Positions 42,796 to 55,938 of a stretch of DNA of 64,000 nt are shown in pieces. Numbering within the stretch: the first letter of the stretch is position 1; each line of letters starts with the position of its first letter. Under the pieces are notes generated by a model. The model did not search any database and was not told the origin of the DNA. It worked only from the letters and a program-made list of their open reading frames with translations. Origin of the DNA: Streptomyces sp. NBC_00285 (GTDB taxonomy: Bacteria; Actinomycetota; Actinomycetes; Streptomycetales; Streptomycetaceae); assembly GCF_036174265.1 (NCBI RefSeq), contig NZ_CP108055.1, positions 5,022,001-5,086,000 of the forward strand, in the 5' to 3' direction. The position numbers were made by a program, and so were the translations under genes.

Positions 42796-44766
42796 TCAGG
42801 CCTCCTTGAGCGGAGCCGGCATCTTCGGCACCCTGCGCCTGCGCAGTCCCAGCGAACCCCTGGCGGCGGTCAGCGTCATCTCGTACGCGTCGACGGCCCG
42901 CCGCACGTTCGGCGTGTCCAGCGCGGCCCCTGTCGTCATCCGGTCCAGATCTACGTAGGCCGAACGGATCTGCTCGATGTAGCGGTAGACGCGCCAGTCC
43001 CACTCCCAGCCGACGACACACTCGGAAGGAAGCTTCCTGCTCCAGCGTTCGAACATGCGCGTCCGCATCTCGGTCGGCGTCGGCGTCAGATGCAGATGGC
43101 GGACGAGGTCGTACAGGGGATCACCGATCATCCCCATCTCCCAGTCGATGATGGTCAGTCCGCCCCGGCGCCCGGCCCGCACCAGATTCCAGGGATTGAG
43201 GTCGCCGTGCAGGAGAACAGGGGTGCGCTCGGTCACCTCGTAACGGCCGAGGATCCGCCGGAGCACACCGCCGTCCGGCAGACCTCTTTGGTGGGCGGCG
43301 GAAAGGGTCTCCGCGGGAAGTTCGTCGACGAAGGCGGTGAGCCGTGCGGTCAGTCGGCGGAAGAAGTCCGCCCTCGGCTCGTCGGACGGCAGGGACAAGT
43401 GGTCCACCACCGCGAGTGCGGCGAGGTGGTCCACGAGTTCGTCCGCCTCCGCGGGCAGCAGCCCCTGCACGGGGTGCTGCGGGGCCCGGCCGCCGGGACC
43501 CTCGTAGGTGTGGATCGCGAAGTGGCGCCCACGGTCGTCGTGGCCCAGTGCCAGGATCCGCGGTGCCCGTACCTGTGCGTCGGACTGCTCGATGAGCTGC
43601 AGGACGGCGTGCTCCGGAAGGAACCCCTTCTCCCGTCGAGGGGCCGCCGCGGTCTCACGACGGACCACCACGGGGTCCGCATAACCGTCCAGCTGAACAA
43701 CGGAGTTGAGATGCGCCGTCCCACGGAAGACCCGACCGGCCGGGACGACGCCCTCCATCGCCAACGCACGGCGCACCAGGTCCGGCGGGAAGTCGACGCG
43801 CTCCGGGACACGATCGTCACGCCGCCACTGAAAGAGGCCGGCCGGCACCTGCCCGGCCTCCCGCGCGATACGCGCCGCCTGCCAGCGGTACAGGGCGTCC
43901 GCGATCTCCTTCTCGGGCGGGACCTCGGACATCCCGAGCGGGTCGGCCGCGCGCTCCAGAGCCGTACCGATCTCACCGGCCACCACCGTCAGCCGACGCT
44001 CCTCGACCGAGTCACCGAGAGACTTCGCCGCCCGGATCACATCGTCGTAACCGGCGTGGATGCGCTCGAAGTCGACGTAGCACCCCAGGTCCCGGCCGAG
44101 GCCGTTGACCGCCAGGGGCCTCGTGCACTGCATCTCGCGGGCCCACTCCTGGACGACCTCGTCCACCTGGTCCTCGGGATAACGCATCCGCACCAGGTGA
44201 CCGGCCAGACCGTGCAGCGGGTCCCCGTACGACGCCGAGGTCCAGTCGAGACGGGCCACCGAGAGCTTGGGACCCTCGGGGCCCTCCAGGACGATGGTGT
44301 TGTCCCGGCTGAGGTTCGTGAGCAGGAGACCGTAGGGGCGGCGGGACAATGCGGGAATCCGCTCGACGAACCGGTCCAGCGCGTCCCCGGACACACCGAG
44401 CACGGCGAACAGTCCGCCAATAGCAGTCCAGTTGGGGTCGAGCATCCGACGCCTGGCACGCCTGACGAGCGTCTCAAGATAGTCCCGGCTGTCCCTCTCG
44501 TTACGCGGCCACTCGGCCGGCAGCGCGGGCAGCGACTCCTTGCGCACGAGGGTCAACTGGACCAGAAACCGTGTCAGTACGCCGATGGACAGGTAGTCGA
44601 CGGGCTTGTCTGCCGGACAGGTTCCGGCCAAAACGTCGGCCGCCAGCCCAGGGGAGGCAACCGGGGCCCCCACGGAGATCTCAGAGAGATATCCGTTCCG
44701 GCGAAACGCCCAGAGAACGGCACTCCGGACTTCGCCCCCGCCGTCAGGCCAAGCCTCGATCGCCAC
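42796..44766 (-). CDS. double aminoglycoside-phosphotransferase-like kinase, degenerate first domain
   Basis: A 656-aa protein with two APH-fold kinase domains. Domain 1 (1-280) is short at its N-terminus by about 70 residues against its paralogue at 45873 and has a damaged catalytic loop: LLLTNLSRDNTIV in place of HTDLHRDN, with DWTSASYGDPLHGLA after it. Domain 2 (about 320-656) is intact: catalytic loop PVLLHGDLNPWNLV, metal motif TIIDWEMGMIGDPLYDLVRHLH. It is likely a small-molecule kinase with a pseudo-kinase partner domain. GTG at 44766 has AGGAG 6 bp upstream. It lies downstream of a broken GntR gene. Confidence 0.85.
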   Translation of the reverse strand: MAIEAWPDGGGEVRSAVLWAFRRNGYLSEISVGAPVASPGLAADVLAGTCPADKPVDYLSIGVLTRFLVQLTLVRKESLPALPAEWPRNERDSRDYLETLVRRARRRMLDPNWTAIGGLFAVLGVSGDALDRFVERIPALSRRPYGLLLTNLSRDNTIVLEGPEGPKLSVARLDWTSASYGDPLHGLAGHLVRMRYPEDQVDEVVQEWAREMQCTRPLAVNGLGRDLGCYVDFERIHAGYDDVIRAAKSLGDSVEERRLTVVAGEIGTALERAADPLGMSEVPPEKEIADALYRWQAARIAREAGQVPAGLFQWRRDDRVPERVDFPPDLVRRALAMEGVVPAGRVFRGTAHLNSVVQLDGYADPVVVRRETAAAPRREKGFLPEHAVLQLIEQSDAQVRAPRILALGHDDRGRHFAIHTYEGPGGRAPQHPVQGLLPAEADELVDHLAALAVVDHLSLPSDEPRADFFRRLTARLTAFVDELPAETLSAAHQRGLPDGGVLRRILGRYEVTERTPVLLHGDLNPWNLVRAGRRGGLTIIDWEMGMIGDPLYDLVRHLHLTPTPTEMRTRMFERWSRKLPSECVVGWEWDWRVYRYIEQIRSAYVDLDRMTTGAALDTPNVRRAVDAYEMTLTAARGSLGLRRRRVPKMPAPLKEA

Positions 44767-44940
44767 TGTTGCTCCTGAAACGCTAGTTCTAAACATCGAA
44801 AACGATGCGTATCCAAGAAAATTGATGCACACGATAGTGGGACGCGCCCCTTCGCATGGCCTCAGTACGCTCTTTGAGACGGCACCTGTCGGACATGTCT
44901 AGGACGTTCCGCAGCTTTTAACATCCCCGCGCCTACTTCG

Positions 44941-45723
44941 TTACGTCGCCAGAAGCTGCCAACTCGAGTCGAACCACCTCTGCCAGCTGCTCACGATCAG
45001 CGAGTCCTGAGAGTCCAGGTCGACGTCCTTGGCGCAGTAAGTCAGCGTGGAGTCGGAGTCCATGACATCGACGACATCCAGGATGGTTCCGTCATCGAGA
45101 GTTGTGGGCCGCTTCGAGGGGACATACGCCCCCGTCACCACCTCGGCCCCGTTGAAAAGGTAGAGCTTCGAGTAGGCACAGGGGGGAACCCGCCGGATCT
45201 CCACCGTGGCTCGCAGCCCGTCGATGTCCCTGTCCAGCTCCCGGAGGCAGCTGACGAGGTTGTTCGTGTGGTACCTCCTGATGCCCCGAAGGTACTGTTG
45301 CGGCCTGTCGTCGGCCGGGGCCAACTGGGCGTAGGGGAAGGACAGCAACTGATCGTCGGACGGCACCAGCAGGCGGATGGCGATCGTGGCCGACCTGATC
45401 TCACGCACCCGGATGAGCTCCTCCTGGGCGCGCACGTGGGTGTAGAGGACTTCCAACATGATGGTGAACACGTCCAGCGTTACATCGCGCGCCGTGAACG
45501 CGGAGGCGATCAGTGGCCCGAGCGTCACGCGCCAGCCTTCACGGGCCAGGACCAGGAACACCCGCTGGACGATGTCGCGAGACACGTGATGCCTCGCTGC
45601 GAGATCGCGCTGCGACGGTAGAAGAGTGCCTTCGTACTCGTCTTATGTGATGTCCGCGAGCAGGGCGCTCTTCAGCTCCTGGAACTTCCGACCGCCTTCG
45701 TCAGCCACACTCCTGGTACTCAC
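44941..45723 (-). pseudogene. DevA-type GntR regulator broken by in-frame stop
   Basis: From GTG 45723 the frame reads VADEGGRKFQELKSALLADIT, then TAA (45645-45643), then DEYEGTLLPSQRDLAARHHVSRDIVQRVFLVLAREGW. Together this is a GntR winged helix interrupted by one nonsense codon. The effector domain (RVTLGPLIASAFTARDVTLDVFTIMLEVLYTHVRAQEE...IAIRLLVPSDDQLLSFPYAQL...WQRWFDSSWQLLAT) is intact and matches the regulator at 48277, but about 25 linker residues after EGW are missing. Re-initiation could give a 214-aa protein without full DNA-binding domain. Confidence 0.8.
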
Positions 45724-45834
45724 ACGCCGCCCCTACCGCTGCCCGTCACGTACCAAACGGTTTTAGGCAACTCGGCTTGCTGCAGAGGCAGTTCCTCAGG
45801 CCATCAGATCAGGCGGAGTAACCAGTTTGCGGCA

Positions 45835-45852
45835 GCCAGTCCACTGGACCGA
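45835..45852. promoter_or_regulatory. candidate operator GCCAGTCCACTGGACCGA
   Basis: Palindromic core GTCCA-C-TGGAC, about 112 bp upstream of the broken GntR start. Nearly the same sequence (GCCAGTCCAATTGGACCGA) occurs at 49298-49316 upstream of the intact GntR paralogue, which supports a shared regulator site. Confidence 0.6.
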
Positions 45853-45872
45853 ATCACTTGCCGACTCCTTTG

Positions 45873-48098
45873 TCACGCCCTGGCGCAGATCTCGGCCGAC
45901 ATGTTCCCTTGCTCCACATGCGGTAGCGCGAGCGTGAGGAATGGGTTGACCGTCGAATTACTCTTGAGTCCTAGCGTCGCGGTCGCTGCGGTCAACGTCA
46001 TGGCGTAGGTGTCCACCGCACGGCTGACGTTGGGAGCTTCGAGGCTGTCCCTGGTCACCAACCGGTCCAGGTCCACGTAGGCCGAACGAACGGTTTCGAT
46101 CCATCGGTACACACGCCAGTCGGGTCGCCAGCCCCTGGTGCAGTCCTCCGGCAGCAGCTGCGACCACCGGTCGAACAGGCGCGTTCGGATCTCGGGGAGA
46201 GTAGGAGTGAGGTGCATGTGGCGGACGAGGTCGTAAAGAGGATCGCCGACCATGGCCATCTCCCAGTCGATCAAGGTCAGTCCCGTGCCGTCCTCGCGGC
46301 GGATCATGTTCCACGGATTGAGGTCTCCGTGGAGGAGTACGGCACGTCGAGGTTTCACCTTGTGCCGGCCAAGGATCTGTTCGAGGCGGAAACTGCTTGT
46401 CGGAAGCCCTAGCTGTCCCGCGAGCTGGAGAGTCTCCTTCGACAGATCCGACACCATCCGGATCAGTTCGTCGCAAAGTTGCTCGTGAAACCCCGCGCCT
46501 GGTGTGTACGAGTCCTCGGCCAACTTCGCACAGTCGACCTGTGTAAGGGCGTGAAGCTGGTTCACAAGGTCGTCCGCCTCAGACGGCAGAAGTCCCCCTG
46601 CAGGGTGATCGGGAGAACGGATCTCCCCCTGCGGCCCTTCAAAGGAATGGATGGTGAACTGGTCTCCGAGTTCACTGGTCCCCAACGCCAGTACGCGCGG
46701 CGCGCACACCGCCACACCCGATTCTTCGATCGCCCGTAGCACGGCGTGCTCCTTCAGAAACCGACGCTCCCGGGGATCGCCGGCACCCACTTTGCGCCGC
46801 ACCATCACCGGGTAGGGCGCCCCTTCTACCCGCACCGCGGTACTGAGGTGTGCCGTCCCCTTGAACACCCGGTCGGCCGAGGCAGCCCCCTCCTCGAAGA
46901 GGGCCTCCTGTACTGCCGGCCCAAGAAACCCCGGATGCTCGGGAACCCTCTCGTCACGCTCCCATGAGATCGATGACACCGCGCGGTCACGGCTGTGGCG
47001 CTTGCCGTGCGACACGTTCCAGCGGAAGAGAATGCGCTCGATGGCCTTCTCATCCGGAACGTTCTTCAGTCGAAGCGGCTCCTCGGCCGCCTGCAGCGCC
47101 CAGAACACCGCTTCGGTCGCGGCGTCCAGGTCCCTTTGATCGAACGATTCGCCTAGGGAAGTCGCCGCGCGCATCACGTCTGGATAGACCGACTGGGCAC
47201 GCTCGAAGGCGACATAGTGCCGCAGGTCGCGCTCCAGACCGTTGACAGCCTTGGCCCGACGCTCCACCATCGCCAACCGCCACGCGTCGACTGCCTCGCC
47301 CCACTGGCCCTCGGGATAGCTCATGCGCACAAGATGGGTGGCGAGGTCGTGCAACGGGTCACCGTAGGTGGCCAGTTCCCAGTCCACACAGATCAGCGGG
47401 GGCCCTGTCTCATAGGACACGATGACGTTGTCGCGGTGCAGGTCTGTATGCAGGAGGCTGAACGGGCGGCTGACCATCGCGGGCACACGCTCCGCGAACC
47501 GCACCATCGCGTCCTCGGGGATGCCAAGCATCGCGAACAGGCCACCGAATCTGTCCCAGTTACGTTGGCGGACCTGCGTCTCCGTGGACAGGGCCAACGT
47601 ACGCAGAAAGGCCCGGCTGTCACGGCTGGAGCGGGGCCAGGACTGCGGCAGGGGCGGCAGTTCTTTCCGGCCGACCTGTGTCATGTCCGCCAGCAGTTCG
47701 GCCAGGGCCCGGACCAGATGCTGGTCCACCAACTTGCCGTTCGGACAGACGCTCGACAGGGGGACGCCGTCCACATAACTCATGAGCGCGACGTCGCCGT
47801 ACTTCAATAGGCACCGCGGTACATGTGGAAGGGCACTACTGATCGCCTTGAGGATCTCCGCTTCGTCCTGCCATGTGCGGATCACCACAGGCAGCGCGGA
47901 TCGCTGACGCTCACGCACCATGACGAATTCATGATCCACTAATGCTTTGAGCCAGGGTGGGAGCGGAACGACGTAATTCAGGTTGTGATGTCCACGAGTA
48001 AGCCTTCCGGCGGCCTTGGCACGAGACACCAACTCACCGAGCGCCTCGCGGGCCGCCCGCTCCGCGAACGCGGTAGCAGGCCCGGATGGACCACCCAC
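45873..48098 (-). CDS. double aminoglycoside-phosphotransferase-like kinase
   Basis: A 741-aa protein with two intact-looking APH-fold kinase domains. Domain 1 (about 30-345): catalytic loop FSLLHTDLHRDNVIV, metal segment ICVDWELATYGDPLHDLATHLVRM. Domain 2 (about 400-700): HSFEGPQGEIRSP hinge region, AVLLHGDLNPWNMI and TLIDWEMAMVGDPLYDLVRHMHLTPT. The two domains share the motif GDPLxDL-x-x-H, so they arose by internal duplication. The substrate is unknown. GTG at 48098 has AGGAG 5 bp upstream. It follows an intact DevA-type GntR gene. Confidence 0.88.
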   Translation of the reverse strand: MGGPSGPATAFAERAAREALGELVSRAKAAGRLTRGHHNLNYVVPLPPWLKALVDHEFVMVRERQRSALPVVIRTWQDEAEILKAISSALPHVPRCLLKYGDVALMSYVDGVPLSSVCPNGKLVDQHLVRALAELLADMTQVGRKELPPLPQSWPRSSRDSRAFLRTLALSTETQVRQRNWDRFGGLFAMLGIPEDAMVRFAERVPAMVSRPFSLLHTDLHRDNVIVSYETGPPLICVDWELATYGDPLHDLATHLVRMSYPEGQWGEAVDAWRLAMVERRAKAVNGLERDLRHYVAFERAQSVYPDVMRAATSLGESFDQRDLDAATEAVFWALQAAEEPLRLKNVPDEKAIERILFRWNVSHGKRHSRDRAVSSISWERDERVPEHPGFLGPAVQEALFEEGAASADRVFKGTAHLSTAVRVEGAPYPVMVRRKVGAGDPRERRFLKEHAVLRAIEESGVAVCAPRVLALGTSELGDQFTIHSFEGPQGEIRSPDHPAGGLLPSEADDLVNQLHALTQVDCAKLAEDSYTPGAGFHEQLCDELIRMVSDLSKETLQLAGQLGLPTSSFRLEQILGRHKVKPRRAVLLHGDLNPWNMIRREDGTGLTLIDWEMAMVGDPLYDLVRHMHLTPTLPEIRTRLFDRWSQLLPEDCTRGWRPDWRVYRWIETVRSAYVDLDRLVTRDSLEAPNVSRAVDTYAMTLTAATATLGLKSNSTVNPFLTLALPHVEQGNMSAEICARA

Positions 48099-48276
48099 GA
48101 GCACTCCTGAGCAACTATGCGGCGCCTCCGATTTTTATGCGCAGCAACAGAGGGACCACACTGTAGTGCTCAAGCGTCCTGAGACGGGCGGTTATTCAGA
48201 ACTTGATACCCAGCTGAAACAGGCTTCACTCCTTGGCTTCACACCGTTCGAAGGTTGTAACGAACAGCAACCGCGA

Positions 48277-49161
48277 TCAGGACGGGTCGTAGCGGTGCCA
48301 ACAGGAGTCAAACCAGTCCTGCCAGCTTTGCATGAACACGGAGCCGATGGCATTGGGATCACCCTCGTCATGAACGAGCCGTATCAAGGTAGACCCCAGC
48401 CCCAGGACGTCCCAGGCGTCTATCTCCGTGTCGTCGTCCATCAGGATCGTGCGCTCCACGATCTTGTACGGGCCGAGAAGCCCCTCGGTACCGCGCCTCA
48501 AATACAGCTTGTGCGTCGGAACGAGCGGGACTTCACGGACCTTCACATCCACGTCGTCCACGAATCCGTCGCTTTGGAGATTGCGCAGGGCGTTACGGAG
48601 AGAGGATGTGTGCCGACGGATGATCTCCCGAGTCCTAGCCTGGAGGATCCGGTCCAGCTCCTTCACATCGACCTTGGGGTCCTTTGGTGCCCTCGCCCGT
48701 GGATACGGCAGCTCGATCTCGTCCGAGGGCAGCAGTATCCGGAGCGCGATACGCCCAGGGGCGGGGATCAATCCACTACTGATCGCCTCGGCCTGCACCC
48801 GCATGTGGGTGTCGAGGCTCTCCGAGGTGAACGTAAAAACGTCCAGCTCCACAACGGGTTGAGCAAAGGCTCGGGCGACAAAAGGTCCGAGTGCTATGCG
48901 GCCAGGCGGCACCTTGGGCTGTGTCGTCACGTGTATGGGGAGCGTCACTCGGACTTTCGAGCCACTGCCCCGACGGGATTCGATCCAGCCCTCGATCCTC
49001 AGCTCACTCAGAACACGCTGGATCGTGTCACGCGAGACGTCGAACTCTTCGGCCAGAGCACGCTGCGCAGGCAGGTTGGAGCCCGGCCGGTACTCGCCAT
49101 CGGAGATACGGGACCGCAGCGTTGCCAGGATGCTGGCTCCCTTGCCGCGTTCTTCGCTCAC
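48277..49161 (-). CDS. DevA-type GntR family regulator
   Basis: A 294-aa regulator. The winged helix is at residues 5-75 (ILATLRSRISDGEYRPGSNLPAQRALAEEFDVSRDTIQRVLSELRIEGWIESRRGSGSKVRV). The effector part shows GRIALGPFVARAFAQPVVELDVFTFTSESLDTHMRVQAEAI, ALRILLPSDEIELPYP, the conserved THKLYLRRGTEGLLGPYKIVERTI and a final SWQDWFDSCWHRY box. The same layout occurs in four more proteins nearby. GTG 49161 was chosen because the longer frame to 49242 adds an unlike sequence. Kinase gene downstream; candidate operators upstream. Confidence 0.88.
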   Translation of the reverse strand: MSEERGKGASILATLRSRISDGEYRPGSNLPAQRALAEEFDVSRDTIQRVLSELRIEGWIESRRGSGSKVRVTLPIHVTTQPKVPPGRIALGPFVARAFAQPVVELDVFTFTSESLDTHMRVQAEAISSGLIPAPGRIALRILLPSDEIELPYPRARAPKDPKVDVKELDRILQARTREIIRRHTSSLRNALRNLQSDGFVDDVDVKVREVPLVPTHKLYLRRGTEGLLGPYKIVERTILMDDDTEIDAWDVLGLGSTLIRLVHDEGDPNAIGSVFMQSWQDWFDSCWHRYDPS

Positions 49162-49250
49162 ACCGCGACGGTACCTCCAGTACCGGCCACTCAAACCGGC
49201 TTCGGTCCACATACAGTCAAATCTGCCGATCCAATAGACCAAATTTGACG

Positions 49251-49316
49251 GACCGGTTAGTCGATCAACCGGTCAGGGCACAACCACATTCGAAGAAGCC
49301 AGTCCAATTGGACCGA
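49251..49316. promoter_or_regulatory. two candidate operators upstream of the 48277-49161 regulator
   Basis: Site 1: GACCGGTT-N8-AACCGGTC (49251-49274), perfect 8-bp arms. Site 2: GCCAGTCCAATTGGACCGA (49298-49316) with perfect 12-bp core GTCCAATTGGAC, shared with 45835-45852. Both precede the regulator by 90-155 bp. Confidence 0.6.
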
Positions 49317-49396
49317 TGCTTGATCAGCTTCATCAAAGTGGACGGGGAGTGGACGGCATGGTGGACCGGTTACGTGCCTGCAGTGCAGCCGACGGC

Positions 49397-50131
49397 TCAG
49401 GGAAGGCTGCGCAGGACGTCCAAAACCTGCTTCATCGAACGCACGACCACCTCTGCGCCCGCGCGCCTCAGGATCTGTTCCTTGTCCTCGTTACGCGCGT
49501 AGCCAAGGAACGAGACACCGGCCTGTCGCGCGGCCAGAAGGTCCGTGTCTGCGTCACCGATCATGACCGTGGCCGACGGTACAGCTCCCATCGCCTTGAT
49601 GGCCTCATCCAGACAGTGCGGGTTCGGCTTCATCAGATCCAGGTTCGGTGTGCGGCCGTAGATGTACGGGAAACAGTCCGCCAGCCCACGGCTCTCGACG
49701 TACGCCGTCGCCGCGAGGGCGGCGTTGTTGGTGGTGATCGCGAACCTGACACCGAACGTCGACCACGTCCTGATCAACGGATCGGCGTGCGGAGTGGGCA
49801 TCGCCTTGGGGACGGCCTCCAGTTCGCGCCGGGTGAGCCATTCCTCCAGCGCGAGGACCAGATCGCTTCCACGATGCCGTTCATGGACACCTCGCAGCGC
49901 CACGTGCGGATCGTCGCCGGATCGTTCCTGCTTGGTCAGCAGTGCGCCCATGCCCAATCCGTCGATCATCCGGACCAGTTCATCGGCGATCTCGTGCGCG
50001 GGATACCCCGCGAACAACCGGCACATCGGCCCGTCCATGTCCCAGAGCACGTACCTGGCGGAGGTGACCAGTGATGCGAGTCGTGCTGTCTCTGCTGTCA
50101 CCGGTTCAGTGTGCGTCGTCTCAGGAGTCAC
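49397..50131 (-). CDS. devB: HAD-superfamily phosphatase, DevB type (copy 1)
   Basis: A 244-aa HAD hydrolase. Motif I RYVLWDMDGPMCRLF, cap-region helices, motif [18 protein letters not shown], motif III Lys in [19 protein letters not shown], motif IV TVMIGDADTDLLAARQAG. The start GTG shares one base with the devA stop (TAGTG), so the genes are coupled, as for devA-devB of S. coelicolor. devB there is needed for normal aerial development; the substrate is unknown. It is about 80% identical by eye to the second copy at 54271. Confidence 0.85.
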   Translation of the reverse strand: MTPETTHTEPVTAETARLASLVTSARYVLWDMDGPMCRLFAGYPAHEIADELVRMIDGLGMGALLTKQERSGDDPHVALRGVHERHRGSDLVLALEEWLTRRELEAVPKAMPTPHADPLIRTWSTFGVRFAITTNNAALAATAYVESRGLADCFPYIYGRTPNLDLMKPNPHCLDEAIKAMGAVPSATVMIGDADTDLLAARQAGVSFLGYARNEDKEQILRRAGAEVVVRSMKQVLDVLRSLP

Positions 50132-51023
50132 TAGGAGAGTGTCAGGTCCGTCGTGATGGTTTCCCAGAGGGCGTTGAACCACTTCTGGGATTCCTCGACG
50201 AACGCGGCGTCGCGCTGGCCAGCGTTCTGATCGAAGGAGAAGAGGAGGGAGGCCGAGCCGAGGACGTCGTACATGTCGAGCATGCCACTGTCGGACATCT
50301 CCTCACGGCGCGTCACCATGTAGTACGCGATCAACGCCTCCGAGTCGTTGAGGAGGTACAGCTTCACCGGCGGTGTGAACGGCAGCGCCCTGAACGTGAC
50401 CTTGACGTCGATGCCGTGGGACGAGCGCAGGGCCTGGAGGTTGTGGCGCAGGACGTGGCCCTGGGCGTTGCGCTGGGTCAGCCAGCGCTCGTGGACCGGG
50501 TTGTCGTCCTGCGGGACCTCAACCGGGACGGGGAAGGCGAGAGTGATCTCCCGGGACGGCAGCAGGATGCGGACGTCGATCGACTCGGGGTGGATGGTGC
50601 CCTCGTGGATGAGGCGCAGCGGTTCGCCCAGGGCCACCATCAGCGTCTCGGCGGTGAGGCAGGCGGCGTCGATCCGGACGTTCGGGGCGGTGAAGGCCTC
50701 CGACAGGCGGGGGGCCAGGCCGACCATCGTGGGCTGCGGCTCACCGGTCACCGGCACCCGCTCCGCGATCCGCGGCGGACTCCCCTTGCTCACGTTGCTG
50801 AGCAATCCGTCCTCCTGCAGCGCGCGCAGTGCCTGGCGGACCGCGCCCCGTTCCACACCGAACTCCTCCGCCAGTTCGGCCTGAGTGGGCAGGCGGTCGC
50901 CCGCCTTGAGGTCACCCGCGCGGATGCGGTCCCGCAGGGTGTCGGCGATTTCCTGGGGCGAGAGCCTTCTGCTGCCGTTCACTGCCACGTTCTCCTGAGT
51001 CACGACCAGACGTTACAACTCCA
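50053..51023. repeat. duplicated segment, copy 1 (devA and devB 5' end)
   Basis: Matches 54927-55897 at a constant offset of 4874 bases. Differences cluster at about 50175-50255 (end of devA) and at 51011-51016; the remaining roughly 750 bp look identical. Outside the segment the two copies diverge. Confidence 0.85.
50131..51003 (-). CDS. devA: GntR family developmental regulator DevA-like (copy 1)
   Basis: A 290-aa regulator. The winged helix is at residues 15-80 (SPQEIADTLRDRIRAGDLKAGDRLPTQAELAEEFGVERGAVRQALRALQEDGLLSNVSKG). The effector domain contains LGEPLRLIHEGTIHPESIDVRILLPSREITLAFPVPVEVP and the conserved LPFTPPVKLYLLNDSEALIAYYMVTRREEM, ending in WFNALWETITTDL. It matches my memory of S. 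coelicolor DevA, which represses itself and is needed for aerial growth. The start may be GTG 51003 or GTG 50982, which has AGGAG 9 bp upstream. devB follows with a 1-base overlap. Confidence 0.85.
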   Translation of the reverse strand: MTQENVAVNGSRRLSPQEIADTLRDRIRAGDLKAGDRLPTQAELAEEFGVERGAVRQALRALQEDGLLSNVSKGSPPRIAERVPVTGEPQPTMVGLAPRLSEAFTAPNVRIDAACLTAETLMVALGEPLRLIHEGTIHPESIDVRILLPSREITLAFPVPVEVPQDDNPVHERWLTQRNAQGHVLRHNLQALRSSHGIDVKVTFRALPFTPPVKLYLLNDSEALIAYYMVTRREEMSDSGMLDMYDVLGSASLLFSFDQNAGQRDAAFVEESQKWFNALWETITTDLTLS

Positions 51024-51043
51024 ATCCATCTATGGGGAGTTGT
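51015..51043. promoter_or_regulatory. inverted repeat in devA promoter
   Basis: ACAACTCC (51015-51022) and GGAGTTGT (51036-51043) form perfect 8-bp arms around 13 bases, directly upstream of devA. The devE promoter has a related, less perfect stretch (ACAACTTCCCGCCATCTTTG from 52320), sharing the CCATCT-TGGG centre. Confidence 0.6.
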
Positions 51044-51090
51044 ACGGAAGTTGTTTATCAACCGTCACCAAGTGGGGACAACATAGTAAG

Positions 51091-51105
51091 AGTTGGTTAC
51101 CAACT
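51091..51105. promoter_or_regulatory. palindrome AGTTGG-TTA-CCAACT upstream of small membrane gene
   Basis: Perfect 6-bp arms with 3-base centre, 70 bp before the small membrane protein gene and 88 bp before devA on the other strand. The same arms recur at 52395-52411 in the equivalent place next to devE, suggesting a DevA/DevE-family operator. Confidence 0.65.
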
Positions 51106-51174
51106 TCGTTGAGTTGGTGGAAGTTTTGCCTCCAGTCCCGCCCGTCCGCCCGAAAGCCCGAAGGGGGAACCAAC

Positions 51175-51363
51175 ATGCCGGCCCTCGCCCTCCTCTCCGC
51201 CGTCTTCGTAGTCGGCGTCGAGCAGACCATGCAGTGGAAGTACGGCGCCAGCGGCATCATCGGGATGCTGTTCCTGACCATCGGCATCAAGGCCAAGAGC
51301 CCCACGATCAGCTCGATCGGGGCCGTGGTGCTGGCTCTGCTGGTCGCGGGACCTGCCATATGA
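51175..51363 (+). CDS. 62-aa membrane protein beside devA
   Basis: Two membrane helices (ALALLSAVFVVGVEQTMQW and a later GAVVLALLVAGPAI) flank a middle segment KYGASGIIGMLFLTIGIKAKSP that is also hydrophobic. AAGGGGG precedes the ATG by 7 bp. It is paralogous to the protein at 52500: both share QW(K/R)-x-GA-x-GI and TIG(I/V)K(A/S)K. Divergent from devA across a regulator-type palindrome, so co-regulation is likely. Function unknown. Confidence 0.8.
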   Translation: MPALALLSAVFVVGVEQTMQWKYGASGIIGMLFLTIGIKAKSPTISSIGAVVLALLVAGPAI

Positions 51364-51399
51364 CCCGAACGGCACCCCGCTCCGCCACTGTGGGAGACG

Positions 51400-52308
51400 T
51401 CAGTTCGTGAGTGCCAACTCCGAACTGATCGTCTCCCACAGTGCGTTGAACCACAGGTGGGACTGCTCCACGAAGGTCGTGTCCCGCAGGCCGGCCCCCT
51501 GCTCGAAGGCGAACAGCATCGACTGCGTACCCGCGGAGTCGTACAGCTCCATGTGCTCGTGGTCGATCTCCGCCTTGCGGCGCGACAGCGTGTAGTAGGC
51601 GAACAGCGCCTCCTCGCCGTTGAGCAGGTACAGCTTCACCGGTGGCGTGAAGGGCAGGGCGCGGAAGGAGACGTGTACGTCTATGCCGTGCGTGGCACGC
51701 AGTGCGAGCAGGTTGTGCTGGAGGACCTGGCCCTGGGCGTTGCGCTGGGCCAGCCAGCCGTCGTGGACCTGGTCGTCGTCGCGGCCCTCGACCGGGACCG
51801 GGAAGGCGAGGTCGATGTCCCGGCCCGGCAGCAGGACGCGGACGTCGATCTTGGCCGGATTCAGCCGTCCTGCGTGGATCTGGCGCAGCCCCTCACCGAG
51901 GGCGAGGTTGAGGGACACCGACGTCAGGCACAGGGCGTCTATCTCGACGTGCGGGACCGCGAAGGCGGAGGCGATCCGGGGTCCGAGGGAGACCGTCGTG
52001 GGCTGCGGCGTGGCCGCCGGGCCGGTGAGCGCCCGGCCGACGCCCAGGTCGGGGGCGACGGTCGCCGGGCTTCCCTTGGAGATGTTGGTGAGCAGGTGCT
52101 CCGCCTGGAGCAGGTGCAGCGCCTGCCGTACGACCCCGCGCTCGACGCCGAACTCGTCGGCCAGCCGCGCTTGCGTGGGCATCCGCTGACCAGCCCGCAG
52201 CGTGCCGGACCTGATCCGGGCGCGGAGCTCGTCGGCCACCTCGTCATGTGACGTCTGTGGCCGCTGTGACCTCTTCCGTCCATTGACGGAGGCGTGTTTC
52301 GGGTCCAC
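51400..52308 (-). CDS. devE: GntR family regulator, DevE-like
   Basis: A 302-aa regulator close to DevA: winged helix DEVADELRARIRSGTLRAGQRMPTQARLADEFGVERGVVRQALHLLQAEHLLTNISKG; effector domain with LGEGLRQIHAGRLNPAKIDVRVLLPGRDIDLAFPVPVEG and LPFTPPVKLYLLNGEEALFAYYTLSRRK; end WFNALWETISSELALTN. In S. coelicolor a devA paralogue named devE lies next to devA; the position and similarity match. GTG 52308 is chosen over a TTG at 52314. No HAD gene follows; a small membrane gene is divergent. Confidence 0.75.
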   Translation of the reverse strand: MDPKHASVNGRKRSQRPQTSHDEVADELRARIRSGTLRAGQRMPTQARLADEFGVERGVVRQALHLLQAEHLLTNISKGSPATVAPDLGVGRALTGPAATPQPTTVSLGPRIASAFAVPHVEIDALCLTSVSLNLALGEGLRQIHAGRLNPAKIDVRVLLPGRDIDLAFPVPVEGRDDDQVHDGWLAQRNAQGQVLQHNLLALRATHGIDVHVSFRALPFTPPVKLYLLNGEEALFAYYTLSRRKAEIDHEHMELYDSAGTQSMLFAFEQGAGLRDTTFVEQSHLWFNALWETISSELALTN

Positions 52309-52394
52309 GACCAAACACTACAACTTCCCGCCATCTTTGGGCAGTTCACTGGAAGGTGGTTATGAGCCGCATCCAAGCGGAGATAAGTACAGTG

Positions 52395-52411
52395 AAGTTG
52401 GCCGCCAACTT
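52395..52411. promoter_or_regulatory. palindrome AAGTTGG-CCG-CCAACTT upstream of second small membrane gene
   Basis: Perfect 7-bp arms, 3-base centre. Same half-site as at 51091-51105. Distance to devE start is 87 bp, matching the 88 bp for devA. Confidence 0.7.
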
Positions 52412-52499
52412 GAGCAATCTTGAGAAACATGGTCATACCTTCACAAGGTTGGCTAACCCGGCGGCCGACAGGGGCCACCGTCCCGAAGGGGGGACCGTC

Positions 52500-52685
52500 A
52501 TGCCGTTCGTCGCTGTCGCCATCGCCGCCCTCGCAGTCGGCTTCGAGGCACTCGTCCAGTGGAGGTGGGGCGCAATGGGCATCGTCGCGTTCGTCGCACT
52601 GACCATCGGCGTGAAGTCCAAGAACGTCGCGATCGGTGGCATCGGAGCGGTCATCCTCGTGATGCTGCTCGCCCAGTCCGGATGA
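52500..52685 (+). CDS. 61-aa membrane protein beside devE
   Basis: Paralogue of the 51175 protein: helix FVAVAIAALAVGFEALVQW, then RWGAMGIVAFVALTIGVKSKNV and helix GIGAVILVMLLAQ. AAGGGGGG precedes the ATG by 6 bp. Divergent from the devE-like gene with a palindrome between. No known domain; likely membrane partner or target of the developmental regulators. Confidence 0.8.
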   Translation: MPFVAVAIAALAVGFEALVQWRWGAMGIVAFVALTIGVKSKNVAIGGIGAVILVMLLAQSG

Positions 52686-52760
52686 CGCCCGCCCCGTCGG
52701 GCCCAGGATCCGGCTGACCGGGCCCCCTTCCGGAGGGGAGCCGGGAGCTCGGTCGGTCTG

Positions 52761-52877
52761 CACAGCCACAACTGAACATCGACAACTGAACAGCAGCGAC
52801 AGCTGCACCCACCCGCACAGCCACAACTGAATGACGAGAACCGAACACCGACAACTGAACATCGACAACTGAACACT
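52761..52877. repeat. degenerate tandem repeat ACAACTGAACATCG
   Basis: Units of about 14 bp: ACAACTGAACATCG at 52769 and 52851, ACAACTGAACAGCAGCG, ACAACTGAATGACGAG, AACCGAACACCG and others across 110 bases. AT-rich for this genome and non-coding, between the small membrane gene and the Eis-like gene. Confidence 0.8.
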
Positions 52878-52951
52878 TCGCTACGGATGCGAAAGCACAA
52901 CCATCGGCACCACAAGGAACACCGCCCACCCGTCCCCGCCAGAAGGGAGCG

Positions 52952-54217
52952 TCAGAACATGTCCGGGCACCAAGGCCGCCTGGACGTACGCAGCAGGGCG
53001 TCGGCTCCCCGGCCGGCGCCCGCTTGTTCTTCCTGCACCCGGCCGAGTGCCACGAGCCGCACCGCCGACTCGTCACCGAGCCACAGTGCCGCCAACTCCC
53101 CCACGTCCAGCGTGAGATCGGCGCTCTCCGTCGTCGCCGTGCAGGAGGCCCCGGCAGGTGAGACGTCCAGCCGGTACCGGCCGCCGGCGAGTCCGGCCGG
53201 GTCCACGACCTCCAGCACCAGCGTGCCCTCACCCTCGTAGGTCCGCGACTCCAGGGCCCGTACGACGTCCAGGATCCGCACCCACAGCCAGTCCGACTGC
53301 GTGGTGATCCTGGCCGCGCGCGGGTCGGGCAGCAGGTGCGGGAGCAGGTCGTCGGGGGCGCGCGGGCCGGTCTTGACCTGCGTGACCCAGTCGACCGAGC
53401 ACAGGTAGTGCCACAGGGCGCGCTCGGCGGCCGGGGTCGAGCAGAGCATCGCCCGCACACTCGCCGTGTTCAACGGCTGCTTGGCGTCGCCCCACGTGTC
53501 GTCCACCTCGTAGGCCAGGAGCCCCTCGACCGTGCCGTCCGCCGCCCGGTACACCGCGAAGAACGGCTCGGTCCACTTCGAGTCGAGACGCAGGGCGCCC
53601 GTCTTGAGCTGCCACAGCCAGTCACCGCGGCTGACGGCACCCGGCGTGGCGCGGCGCAGCCGGTCGTGCAGTTCGGGGCCGATTTTGCGTACCTCGTCGG
53701 GGCCCACCAGGTCGATACGGGCGCCCGCGCCCAGGTCCGGCCCGCGGCGGTCGAGGCCGGTGCGCGGGAGGTCGATGCTCCACTCGGCGGCCGAGGTGGC
53801 GGGGCCGAAGCCGTAGCGGCCGTAGATCCGGTACTCGGCGGCGATCAGCGTGGCCACGACGTCCCCGCGTTCCTTCGCGACGGCGAGGTCGTGGTTCATC
53901 ATGCGGGTGAGCAGACCGCGCCGGCGATGGGTGGCGGTCACGGTGACGCCGGTTATCCCGTCGGCGGTCACGAACTCGCCCCCGACCGCCGTGACCTCCT
54001 GCTCGAAGGACCGGAAGGTCGCCACGCAACGGTCCCCCTCGAAGGCCCCGAGGTACCGCCCTGGCTCGAACTGACTCCTCCGGGCCTCCAGCTCCGCCTC
54101 CGCCACGACCGGCTCCCGCAGAAACCCGACGTGCACGGCCCGAAGCCACTCGGGAAACTCAGCCTCGGTGATCGGACGGACCTTTGTGCTGTCGGTGTGC
54201 GAGTGAGCGCGGACCAT
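52952..54217 (-). CDS. Eis-like GNAT acetyltransferase
   Basis: A 421-aa protein of the Eis family: N-terminal GNAT domain ([73 protein letters not shown] with the RRRGLL acetyl-CoA loop), a second GNAT-like domain, and a C-terminal sterol-carrier-like domain ([47 protein letters not shown]). Eis proteins acetylate several amines of aminoglycosides or proteins. ATG 54217 is chosen; a TTG at 54256 adds 13 residues. It lies between the two devAB copies. Confidence 0.9.
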
Positions 54218-54270
54218 AGGGTCACCGTAGGGGACAGCATGGATGGTGTCGTGCAAATATTCGGGCCCGT

Positions 54271-55005
54271 TCAGGGAAGAGCGCGCACGATGTCCAGTAT
54301 TTGCTCCATCGAGCCCACTACGACCTCGGCGCCCGCGTCTCTCAGCATCCGCTCCTTGGTCTCGTTACGCGCGTAGCCGAGGAACGAGACCCCGGCTTGC
54401 TGTGCGGCTTGGAGGTCGGTCGGGGCGTCGCCGATCATCAGGGTGACCGAGGGATCGGCGCCCATGGCCTTGATGGCCTCTTCCAGGCAGTAAGGGTTGG
54501 GCTTCATCAGGTCGAGGTCCTGGGTGCGGCCGTAGACGTACGGGAAGCAGTCCTTCAGCTCTCGACTCTCGACGTACGCCACTGCCGCGAGGGCGGCGTT
54601 GTTGGTGGTGATCGCGAATCTGACATCGCGCGAGGACCAAGTCCTGATCAACGGGTCGGCGTGCGGGGTGGGCATCGCCTTGGGAACGGCCCTCAACTCC
54701 CGCTGGGTGAGCCACTCCTCAAGTTCGAGGACCAGGTCGCTTCCCCTGCGCTGTTCATGGACCCTACGCAAGGGTTGATGGGAATCAAAGGCGGATCGTT
54801 CCTTCTCGGTCAGAAGGACGCCCATGCCCAACTGATCGATCTTGTCCACCAGTTCGTTGGCTATCTCATGAGCGGGATACCCCGCGAACAGGCGGCAGAT
54901 CGGCCCGTCCAGGTCCCAGAGCACATACCTGGCGGAGGTGACCAGTGATGCGAGTCGTGCTGTCTCTGCTGTCACCGGTTCAGTGTGCGTCGTCTCAGGA
55001 GTCAC
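54271..55005 (-). CDS. HAD-superfamily phosphatase, DevB type (copy 2)
   Basis: A 244-aa paralogue of the protein at 49397: motif [15 protein letters not shown], motif [18 protein letters not shown], Lys motif [19 protein letters not shown], motif [20 protein letters not shown]. All catalytic residues are kept. The first 35 residues match copy 1 exactly, the rest at about 80%. GTG start overlaps the upstream regulator stop by one base. Confidence 0.85.
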
Positions 55006-55897
55006 TAGGAGAGTGTCAGGTCCGTCGTGATGGTTTCCCAGAGGGCGTCGAACCACTTCTGCGACTGCTCGACGAACGCGGCGTCGCGGTCGCCGGCGCC
55101 CTTCTCGAAGGAGAAGAGGAGGGAAGCCGAGCCGAGGACGTCGTACATGTCGAGCATGCCACTGTCGGACATCTCCTCACGGCGCGTCACCATGTAGTAC
55201 GCGATCAACGCCTCCGAGTCGTTGAGGAGGTACAGCTTCACCGGCGGTGTGAACGGCAGCGCCCTGAACGTGACCTTGACGTCGATGCCGTGGGACGAGC
55301 GCAGGGCCTGGAGGTTGTGGCGCAGGACGTGGCCCTGGGCGTTGCGCTGGGTCAGCCAGCGCTCGTGGACCGGGTTGTCGTCCTGCGGGACCTCAACCGG
55401 GACGGGGAAGGCGAGAGTGATCTCCCGGGACGGCAGCAGGATGCGGACGTCGATCGACTCGGGGTGGATGGTGCCCTCGTGGATGAGGCGCAGCGGTTCG
55501 CCCAGGGCCACCATCAGCGTCTCGGCGGTGAGGCAGGCGGCGTCGATCCGGACGTTCGGGGCGGTGAAGGCCTCCGACAGGCGGGGGGCCAGGCCGACCA
55601 TCGTGGGCTGCGGCTCACCGGTCACCGGCACCCGCTCCGCGATCCGCGGCGGACTCCCCTTGCTCACGTTGCTGAGCAATCCGTCCTCCTGCAGCGCGCG
55701 CAGTGCCTGGCGGACCGCGCCCCGTTCCACACCGAACTCCTCCGCCAGTTCGGCCTGAGTGGGCAGGCGGTCGCCCGCCTTGAGGTCACCCGCGCGGATG
55801 CGGTCCCGCAGGGTGTCGGCGATTTCCTGGGGCGAGAGCCTTCTGCTGCCGTTCACTGCCACGTTCTCCTGAGTCACGACCAAACGCTACAACTCCA
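54927..55897. repeat. duplicated segment, copy 2 (devA-like and devB 5' end)
   Basis: Partner of 50053-51023. At the right side the match stops inside the promoter (AACTCCA), so copy 2 lacks the inverted repeat and palindrome present upstream of copy 1. Confidence 0.85.
55005..55877 (-). CDS. GntR family developmental regulator DevA-like (copy 2)
   Basis: A 290-aa protein identical to the regulator at 50131 except near the C-terminus (FEKGAGDRDAAFVEQSQKWFDALWE against FDQNAGQRDAAFVEESQKWFNALWE). Same winged helix and effector domain, so both copies should bind the same DNA. Its own upstream region is cut short at the duplication edge and lacks the palindromes. The HAD gene follows with a 1-base overlap. 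Confidence 0.85.
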   Translation of the reverse strand: MTQENVAVNGSRRLSPQEIADTLRDRIRAGDLKAGDRLPTQAELAEEFGVERGAVRQALRALQEDGLLSNVSKGSPPRIAERVPVTGEPQPTMVGLAPRLSEAFTAPNVRIDAACLTAETLMVALGEPLRLIHEGTIHPESIDVRILLPSREITLAFPVPVEVPQDDNPVHERWLTQRNAQGHVLRHNLQALRSSHGIDVKVTFRALPFTPPVKLYLLNDSEALIAYYMVTRREEMSDSGMLDMYDVLGSASLLFSFEKGAGDRDAAFVEQSQKWFDALWETITTDLTLS

Positions 55898-55938
55898 GTC
55901 AGCGCAGCCGAGTCCCGTGGAGAAGTCGACGAGAAGAA

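Follow-up and report, generated by a model that had tools for sequence, protein, structure and literature searches.

An expanded dev locus in Streptomyces sp. NBC_00285 with double APH-fold kinases beside DevA-type regulators: a proposed metabolite switch

The closest described relative of the locus analysed here is the devA-devB-devC-devE neighbourhood of Streptomyces coelicolor (Clark and Hoskisson 2011, PMC3187754). According to the text of that paper, devA negatively autoregulates itself and devB, mutants in devA, devE and devB show developmental phenotypes, and DevE is 57.6% identical to DevA. The same text lists two paralogues in Streptomyces sviceus, DevF and DevG (SSEG00372 and SSEG00373), which are 29–33% identical to DevA and DevE and are numbered near devE, with their partner genes not discussed; neither a ligand of DevA or DevE nor a DevB substrate was found in it. 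Here, we analyse a 64,000-nucleotide stretch (the window; C1:5022001–5086000) of the 10.3-Mb genome of Streptomyces sp. NBC_00285, in which positions 42796–55883 hold an expanded dev locus comprising five DevA-type GntR regulator genes (R1 to R5), two DevB-type HAD phosphatase genes (H1 and H2), two DevC genes and two genes for double APH-fold kinases (K1 and K2). The order of transcription on the minus strand is R5-H2, an Eis-like GNAT acetyltransferase, R4, R3-H1, R2-K2 and R1-K1.

This arrangement resembles that of S. coelicolor (PMC3187754) in joining a GntR helix-turn-helix (HTH) to a DevA-type C-terminal domain, in the accompanying HAD gene (co-transcribed in S. coelicolor), in the divergent devC (~50 aa there) and in the devE duplicate upstream. 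It differs in its double kinase, the word 'kinase' having 0 occurrences in the text of that paper, figures aside, and in having a third regulator type, a second devAB pair without an operator and a decaying module; the comparison is one of published descriptions, with the S. coelicolor sequences outside it. A first-pass annotation of this DNA had regarded the coupling of this regulator class to kinases as undescribed, and this stands, no report of it having been found in the open-access literature searched. The expansion of the class is partly known from DevF and DevG of S. sviceus (PMC3187754). Relative to the text of the open-access reports (PMC3187754, PMC5083789 and PMC4877046), the kinase arm, the operator of the third regulator, the fold prediction and a membrane sensor are new.

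We lean, with modest assurance, towards reading the expanded dev locus as a locally autoregulated kinase/phosphatase metabolite switch sensed by the DevA family. Its full form in Streptomyces would be devC-devE-devC-devA-devB-(devG)-kinase-(membrane sensor). The APH-type kinase would phosphorylate a small metabolite and DevB would remove the phosphate from the product; DevA, DevE and DevG would bind the metabolite or its phospho form through a C-terminal, dead-phospholipase-D-like domain, each holding its local promoter repressed in the absence of the ligand and releasing it as the ligand accumulates, and a membrane-anchored paralogue (memR) would read the same ligand without contacting DNA. 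The sequences themselves show which genes are present, their conserved order, kinship and co-occurrence, the catalytic motifs and the operator-like palindromes; we infer the substrates of the enzymes, the identity of the ligand, the opposition of kinase and phosphatase, operator binding and the role of the membrane protein.

Linkage of the kinase to devA and devB

K2 (45873–48104, minus strand; Pfam APH 4.7e-48, two stretches), the intact double kinase, has 845 relatives at E ≤ 0.001 among 7,995 scored proteins. A genome scan gave 200 encoding stretches, from which the best 80 were fetched (79 titled Streptomyces, 1 titled Actinobacteria); these loci are thus chosen by their kinase. In 80/80 loci, the kinase is preceded on its own strand by genes for a DevA-type regulator and a HAD protein; a DevC-type gene lies on the opposite strand in 77/80, and a third regulator stands between HAD gene and kinase in 58/80. 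Where the third regulator is missing (22/80), either nothing was recognised in its place (20 loci) or a short regulator remnant remains (2 loci). The cluster order is more than chance, because it is conserved across the 80 loci.

The linkage recurs in a kinase-independent sample of 61 Streptomyces genomes (effector domain at E ≤ 1e-8, kinase at E ≤ 1e-30). The DevA-type effector domain is present in 35 of these genomes and the kinase in 26, all 26 being among the 35 (Fisher p = 7e-10, uncorrected for kinship). In 25 of the 26, no more than 3.2 kb separates the kinase from a DevA-type gene; in the 26th genome (G001), the kinase lies near a contig start, with the regulators on another small contig. 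Regulator, HAD gene and kinase stand together in 15 of 16 loci fetched from the 26 genomes, and a HAD gene is nearby in 8 of the 9 genomes that have the regulator without the kinase. The recurrence of kinase genes beside DevA-type genes elsewhere, on which the first-pass annotation had staked its proposal, is thus borne out. Since the kinase travels with devB, DevA and DevE probably sense a metabolite that can be phosphorylated, and this linkage would provide a handle on it.

Such co-occurrence could also arise by genomic hitch-hiking, if a resistance- or salvage-type APH kinase had settled by the dev genes in one Streptomyces ancestor and been kept there by synteny. Consistent with this, the 80 loci fetched of 200 are all from Streptomyces but for the one titled Actinobacteria, 9 of 35 DevA-bearing genomes have no kinase, and flanking genes are also widely kept without evident link, namely those for an Eis-type GNAT upstream of the first regulator (71/80 loci), YgfZ (64/80), TetR (58/80) and HelD (55/80). 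However, the kinase stays by devA-devB while devG, memR, extra HAD genes and extra kinases vary; single kinases are found in both regulator-HAD-kinase and regulator-kinase-HAD orders; and the proximity to DevA-type genes holds in every kinase-bearing genome apart from the one with its kinase at a contig start. We therefore consider hitch-hiking unlikely.

Across the class, the effector domain (E ≤ 1e-10) occurs in 39 of 345 genomes, 13 of which lie outside Streptomyces, and a HAD gene comes after the regulator in 13/13 of these non-Streptomyces genomes. Three Streptomyces loci (L135, L136 and L172) carry the devC-regulator-HAD set with one single-domain kinase. When 44 kinase domains are placed in a tree, the first domain of the double kinase falls within the single dev-locus kinases, and domain 2 forms a separate clade. 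A path from devAB, through the gain of a single kinase, to fusion with a second kinase domain and spread of the regulators appears likely, because only the regulator-HAD pair is found outside the genus, single-kinase loci exist and domain 1 nests among single kinases.

The two double kinases of the window are not equivalent. K1 (42796–44832, minus strand; Pfam APH 4.7e-27, two stretches) is 50% identical to K2 over 602 aa, in a BLAST alignment that starts only at K2 residue 116; its domain 1 is truncated and has lost the catalytic Asp (loop LTNLSRDN, compared with HTDLHRDN in K2), and its domain 2 keeps HxDxxxxN. This pattern is present in both domains in 17/17 aligned rows (K2 plus 16 homologues taken from the 120 listed); among the 44 domain rows, it fails in four, domain 1 of K1 and domain 2 of L077, L179 and L180. 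K1 had been counted as one of two double kinases; it is not a second intact one. The R1-K1 module has no close DNA relative in a set of 25 genomes, 15 belonging to the genus and 10 to the order, in which the longest matches are at 64–69% identity and lie on kinase genes. This second module is decaying.

The kinases share with APH, choline and methylthioribose kinases the Pfam APH match and the catalytic loops, and are unlike them in having two fused kinase domains. The phosphatases H1 (49397–50182, minus strand; PF00702 6.2e-15) and H2 (54271–55056, minus strand), which are 82% identical, show by inspection the four motifs that define HAD enzymes (DMDG/DLDG, TTNN, MKPN and GDADTD/GDAPTD). Instead of a metabolite, these enzymes could act on protein, with the kinases phosphorylating DevA-type regulators or the membrane protein and DevB acting as a protein phosphatase in a phosphorylation switch. 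The joint travel of kinase, HAD gene and regulators (80/80 and 15/16 loci) would fit this, but the Pfam and fold matches of the kinase point for the most part to small-molecule kinases (APH, choline, ethanolamine and methylthioribose kinases), with the caveat that its structure model is weak (predicted local distance difference test score 66) and its fold matches only restate the APH fold, and the NCBIfam entries nearest to the HADs, below their cut-offs, are 3-amino-5-hydroxybenzoate (AHBA)-associated and phosphoglycolate phosphatases. A protein-directed switch is thus distinctly improbable.

The best of these entries, an AHBA synthesis-associated phosphatase, though matched far below its cut-off, could instead be taken as a sign of biosynthesis, with the locus producing a phosphorylated secondary metabolite, or a component of the cell envelope, under ordinary pathway-specific regulators. 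In favour of such a pathway, biosynthetic clusters often contain APH and HAD genes. The conserved core recognised among the annotated neighbours, however, is made up of regulators, HAD gene, kinase and small membrane proteins, with room for a further enzyme among the rest, and we regard a biosynthetic role as quite unlikely.

The regulator family and its effector domain

The five regulators on the minus strand comprise R3, the DevA of the locus (50131–51003; assigned by its Pfam GntR HTH and by the tree), R5, a second DevA copy 98% identical to R3 (55005–55883), R4, the DevE (51400–52314; GntR HTH 1.8e-16), R2, of DevG type (48277–49242; GntR HTH 4.9e-21), and R1, a DevG-type pseudogene (44941–45585). 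R2, R3, R4 and R5 carry the GntR winged HTH (PF00392) at the N-terminus. R1 is broken, with one in-frame TAA within an HTH remnant that extends to 45678 and with the linker between HTH and effector domain gone. The listed GTG start of R3 (51003) precedes an AGGAG, and translation may start at a GTG 15 or 21 nucleotides downstream, the latter being better spaced. Of the gene inventory given by the first-pass annotation, the five regulators, the two HADs and the two hydrophobic mini proteins stand, whereas R1 is broken and K1 is not intact.

The C-terminal domain is homologous across R1 to R5, with pairwise identities of 27% to 98% and E ~5e-15 for the weakest pair. Zero Pfam families match the effector domain of R2 and R3 at E ≤ 5, so that it is no UTRA, FCD or aminotransferase domain, and whole-regulator NCBIfam matches cover the HTH part alone. 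A quick maximum-likelihood tree, built from 69 effector domains selected by hand out of those found, groups R3 and R5 with genes in the DevA position and places R4 in a 16-row devE set (Shimodaira–Hasegawa-like approximate likelihood ratio test (SH-aLRT) 100) and R2 in a set of 15 rows, 14 of them devG and the last an upstream-lying gene, L008:3094 (SH-aLRT 100); R1 falls beside the devG genes on a long branch, with weak placement, and the DevA group is not a single clade separate from DevE. That the effector domains form one family, a test set beforehand, is upheld by this pairwise homology and by the tree with its DevA, DevE and DevG groups. A V/HKLYL box noted earlier fares less well: R1 has SKLYL, and K alone is invariant in 64 aligned family members, which do not include R1.

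R2, and weakly R1, thus appear to represent a third regulator type, here called DevG; the label denotes genes between devB and the kinase and was given by position and rough identity, without comparison to SSEG00373. R4 and R3 are 58% identical and have the same gene order as devE and devA, the S. coelicolor SCO4190 sequence being outside this comparison. The remnants at L053:9654–9731 (24 bits) and L058:9650–9781 (55 bits) resemble devG, which may have been lost repeatedly.

The regulators also differ in their partners: R3 has both a divergent DevC and a co-directional HAD gene, R5 the HAD gene only and R4 the small protein only. The DevC divergent from R3 is a hydrophobic protein of 62 aa (51175–51363, plus strand), and a second DevC-like hydrophobic protein of 61 aa diverges from R4 (52500–52685, plus strand). 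In L006, L008, L009, L011, L014, L023, L026, L027, L029, L033, L035, L039, L047 and L077, devG is preceded by a weak third DevC-like match (22–69 bits) on the opposite strand, so that every type of regulator may be paired with a divergent small membrane protein of its own.

The effector domain is tentatively predicted by modelling to have a phospholipase-D-like fold with a degenerate HKD motif, the motif that marks the phospholipase D superfamily. Its likeness to that superfamily lies in the predicted fold and in an invariant Lys at the HKD position, followed five residues on by Asn in 54 of 64 rows (Arg in 7, Pro in 2, Gln in 1). It is unlike it in having no catalytic motif: His two residues before the Lys is found in 0/64 rows, the Asp is replaced, and HxKxxxxD is absent. 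The structure-match (VIA) list is mostly filled by the HTH (residues 10–85). TrmB-type regulators, whose C-terminal domain is phospholipase-D-like, offer a parallel as proteins with a winged HTH and a C-terminal domain, and TrmBL2 appears in the same Foldseek list; however, the HTH is here of GntR type, and no sequence match of the C-terminal domain to a solved structure was found. Proof of phospholipase D ancestry from sequence was attempted and failed, with hhalign against five phospholipase D domain stretches of the same genome giving a probability of 0.06% for the effector domain and 0.32% for the membrane paralogue, and with no solved-structure match.

That membrane paralogue, memR, lies directly downstream of the kinase in 25/80 loci (23/74 of those with more than 3 kb of downstream sequence). 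It has the DevA effector domain (hhalign probability 98.8%, E = 1.2e-16 over 190 columns), no HTH and an N-terminal hydrophobic segment, and has ~295 codons in 24 loci, being partial in L003; an example is L002:12273–13151, with 23 further aligned rows. A Pfam scan found the GntR HTH in 57/64 rows, and the remaining 7 match the number of memR rows. Hydropathy gives a membrane-like segment in 21/24 memR rows, with a second segment above threshold in 5 only. None of 120 listed among 349 memR relatives has a precomputed Pfam domain, and the names listed are hypothetical protein, uncharacterized (membrane) protein and ATP/GTP-binding protein. No memR match at E ≤ 1e-15 was found in the window's own genome, where R1-K1 sits in the place before the TetR gene. 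A membrane-anchored, HTH-less sensor copy would constitute a possible second output of the locus.

Predicted operators and the proposed switch

Two candidate operators are proposed, the first derived from words over-represented upstream of dev genes. This one, op1 (AGTTGGnnnCCAACT), predicted for DevA and DevE, lies in the window between devA and devC (51091–51105) and upstream of devE (52396–52410), and has 147 exact matches in the 80 loci (1.66 Mb), 78 of them upstream of devE (77/77 loci), 68 upstream of devA (68/79 loci) and 1 elsewhere. The second, op2 (GTCCAATTGGAC), predicted for DevG, lies at 49302–49313 and has 36 matches in the same 1.66 Mb, 33 of them upstream of devG (33/57 loci). 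The placement of op1 agrees with the autoregulation of DevA given in the published text (PMC3187754).

A search of the 61 whole genomes, a sample separate from the discovery loci although species may overlap, gave 53 exact op1 sites. Of these, 37 lie at most 800 bp upstream of a DevA-type effector match and 16 elsewhere; of the latter, 9 belong to genomes that carry a DevA-type gene and 7 to the 26 that lack one. This count used 74 of 81 effector matches, excluding R1 and six weak rows (39–50 bits), five of which are memR genes and one, in G016, a distant memR-like match. The reversed op1 sequence has 47 sites in the same genomes, a total reported without positions, so that the case for op1 rests on the location of its sites and not on their number. 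Likewise, with one mismatch allowed, the window's own genome has 17 op1 sites and 17 sites of the reversed control; for op2 it holds two sites, at one and two mismatches respectively (control, 5). For exact sites, the clustering of op1 upstream of DevA-type genes suggests a mainly local regulon, in which case the developmental phenotype would stem from the locus's own enzymes.

A distal group of two exact op1 sites and one with one mismatch (C1:4913049–4913589, ~160 kb off) was considered as a further target and rejected as a relic. It consists of three pieces of 44–125 bp that are 78–93% identical to the devC/devA and devE promoters, and tblastn of R2, R3, R4, H1 and K2 found nothing there better than E 0.035. 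In L164 (G000:C1:4903000–4922000), where the relic lies at ~9.88–10.6 kb, the op1 sites are kept and dev genes are unrecognisable; the sites might act as a decoy.

R3-H1 and R5-H2 form a 1,634-bp repeat of 91% identity that is a mosaic, with 98.6% over the regulators compared with 83% over the HAD genes; in 100-bp steps, identity is 0.93–1.00 over the first 1,000 bp and then 0.72–0.86. H1 is nearer to devB of L001 (87.7%) than to H2 (83.4%). Because the regulators are near-identical and the HAD ends are at 72–86%, the repeat is consistent with an older duplication followed by recent homogenisation of the regulator part, as after gene conversion. It ends 15 bp upstream of R5, at 55898, which explains why R5 has no copy of op1. 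The two predicted operators, together with HADs that have diverged while the regulators are near-identical, argue for at least two related but separate signals rather than one ligand. More speculatively, and with considerable doubt on our part, sporulation in kinase-bearing Streptomyces might be gated by a dedicated phospho-metabolite, its level set by the two-headed kinase and DevB, sensed by the GntR repressors through a domain descended from a dead phospholipase D and signalled at the envelope by their DNA-free, membrane-tethered copy. If so, this would be a new self-contained signalling circuit in which copy-specific operators would let paralogues split the signal.

Several observations weigh against the metabolite switch. 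Nine of the 35 DevA-bearing Streptomyces genomes have no kinase match at E ≤ 1e-30, nor one at E ≤ 1e-3 around those loci, and none was found at E ≤ 1e-3 in 13/13 non-Streptomyces genomes (three of the stretches being 9 kb or shorter); it follows from these absences that the kinase is not needed for the core function. The genomes are related, so the counts are not independent. Besides K1, three of the 44 domain rows do not match HxDxxxxN in domain 2. op1 is not seen upstream of 11/79 devA genes, nor op2 upstream of devG in 24/57 loci. The phospholipase D relation is invisible by sequence, given the hhalign values above, and Pfam finds nothing in the effector domain. The substrates and the ligand, as well as the chemistry and binding steps, are proposals from sequence, and the phenotypes were measured in S. 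coelicolor, which may or may not carry the kinase.

Neighbouring genes and variant loci

The Eis-like GNAT acetyltransferase (52952–54256, minus strand; NCBIfam NF002367 (PRK01346.1-4), 5e-92, above cut-off) lies between R4 and H2 and is a conserved neighbour, for which membership in the dev system is not claimed. An anti-phage defence role was considered and rejected, as PADLOC gave only weak matches to the HTH and the hydrolase. The operator-less second devAB pair and the decaying devG-kinase copy of this window were not seen in that form in the 80 loci. In four loci (L065, L077, L178 and L180), an extra HAD gene lies on the opposite strand and the double kinase is preceded by a single one, which together perhaps constitute a second mini-module; in L065 and L178, the extra HAD gene adjoins a distant memR-like gene.

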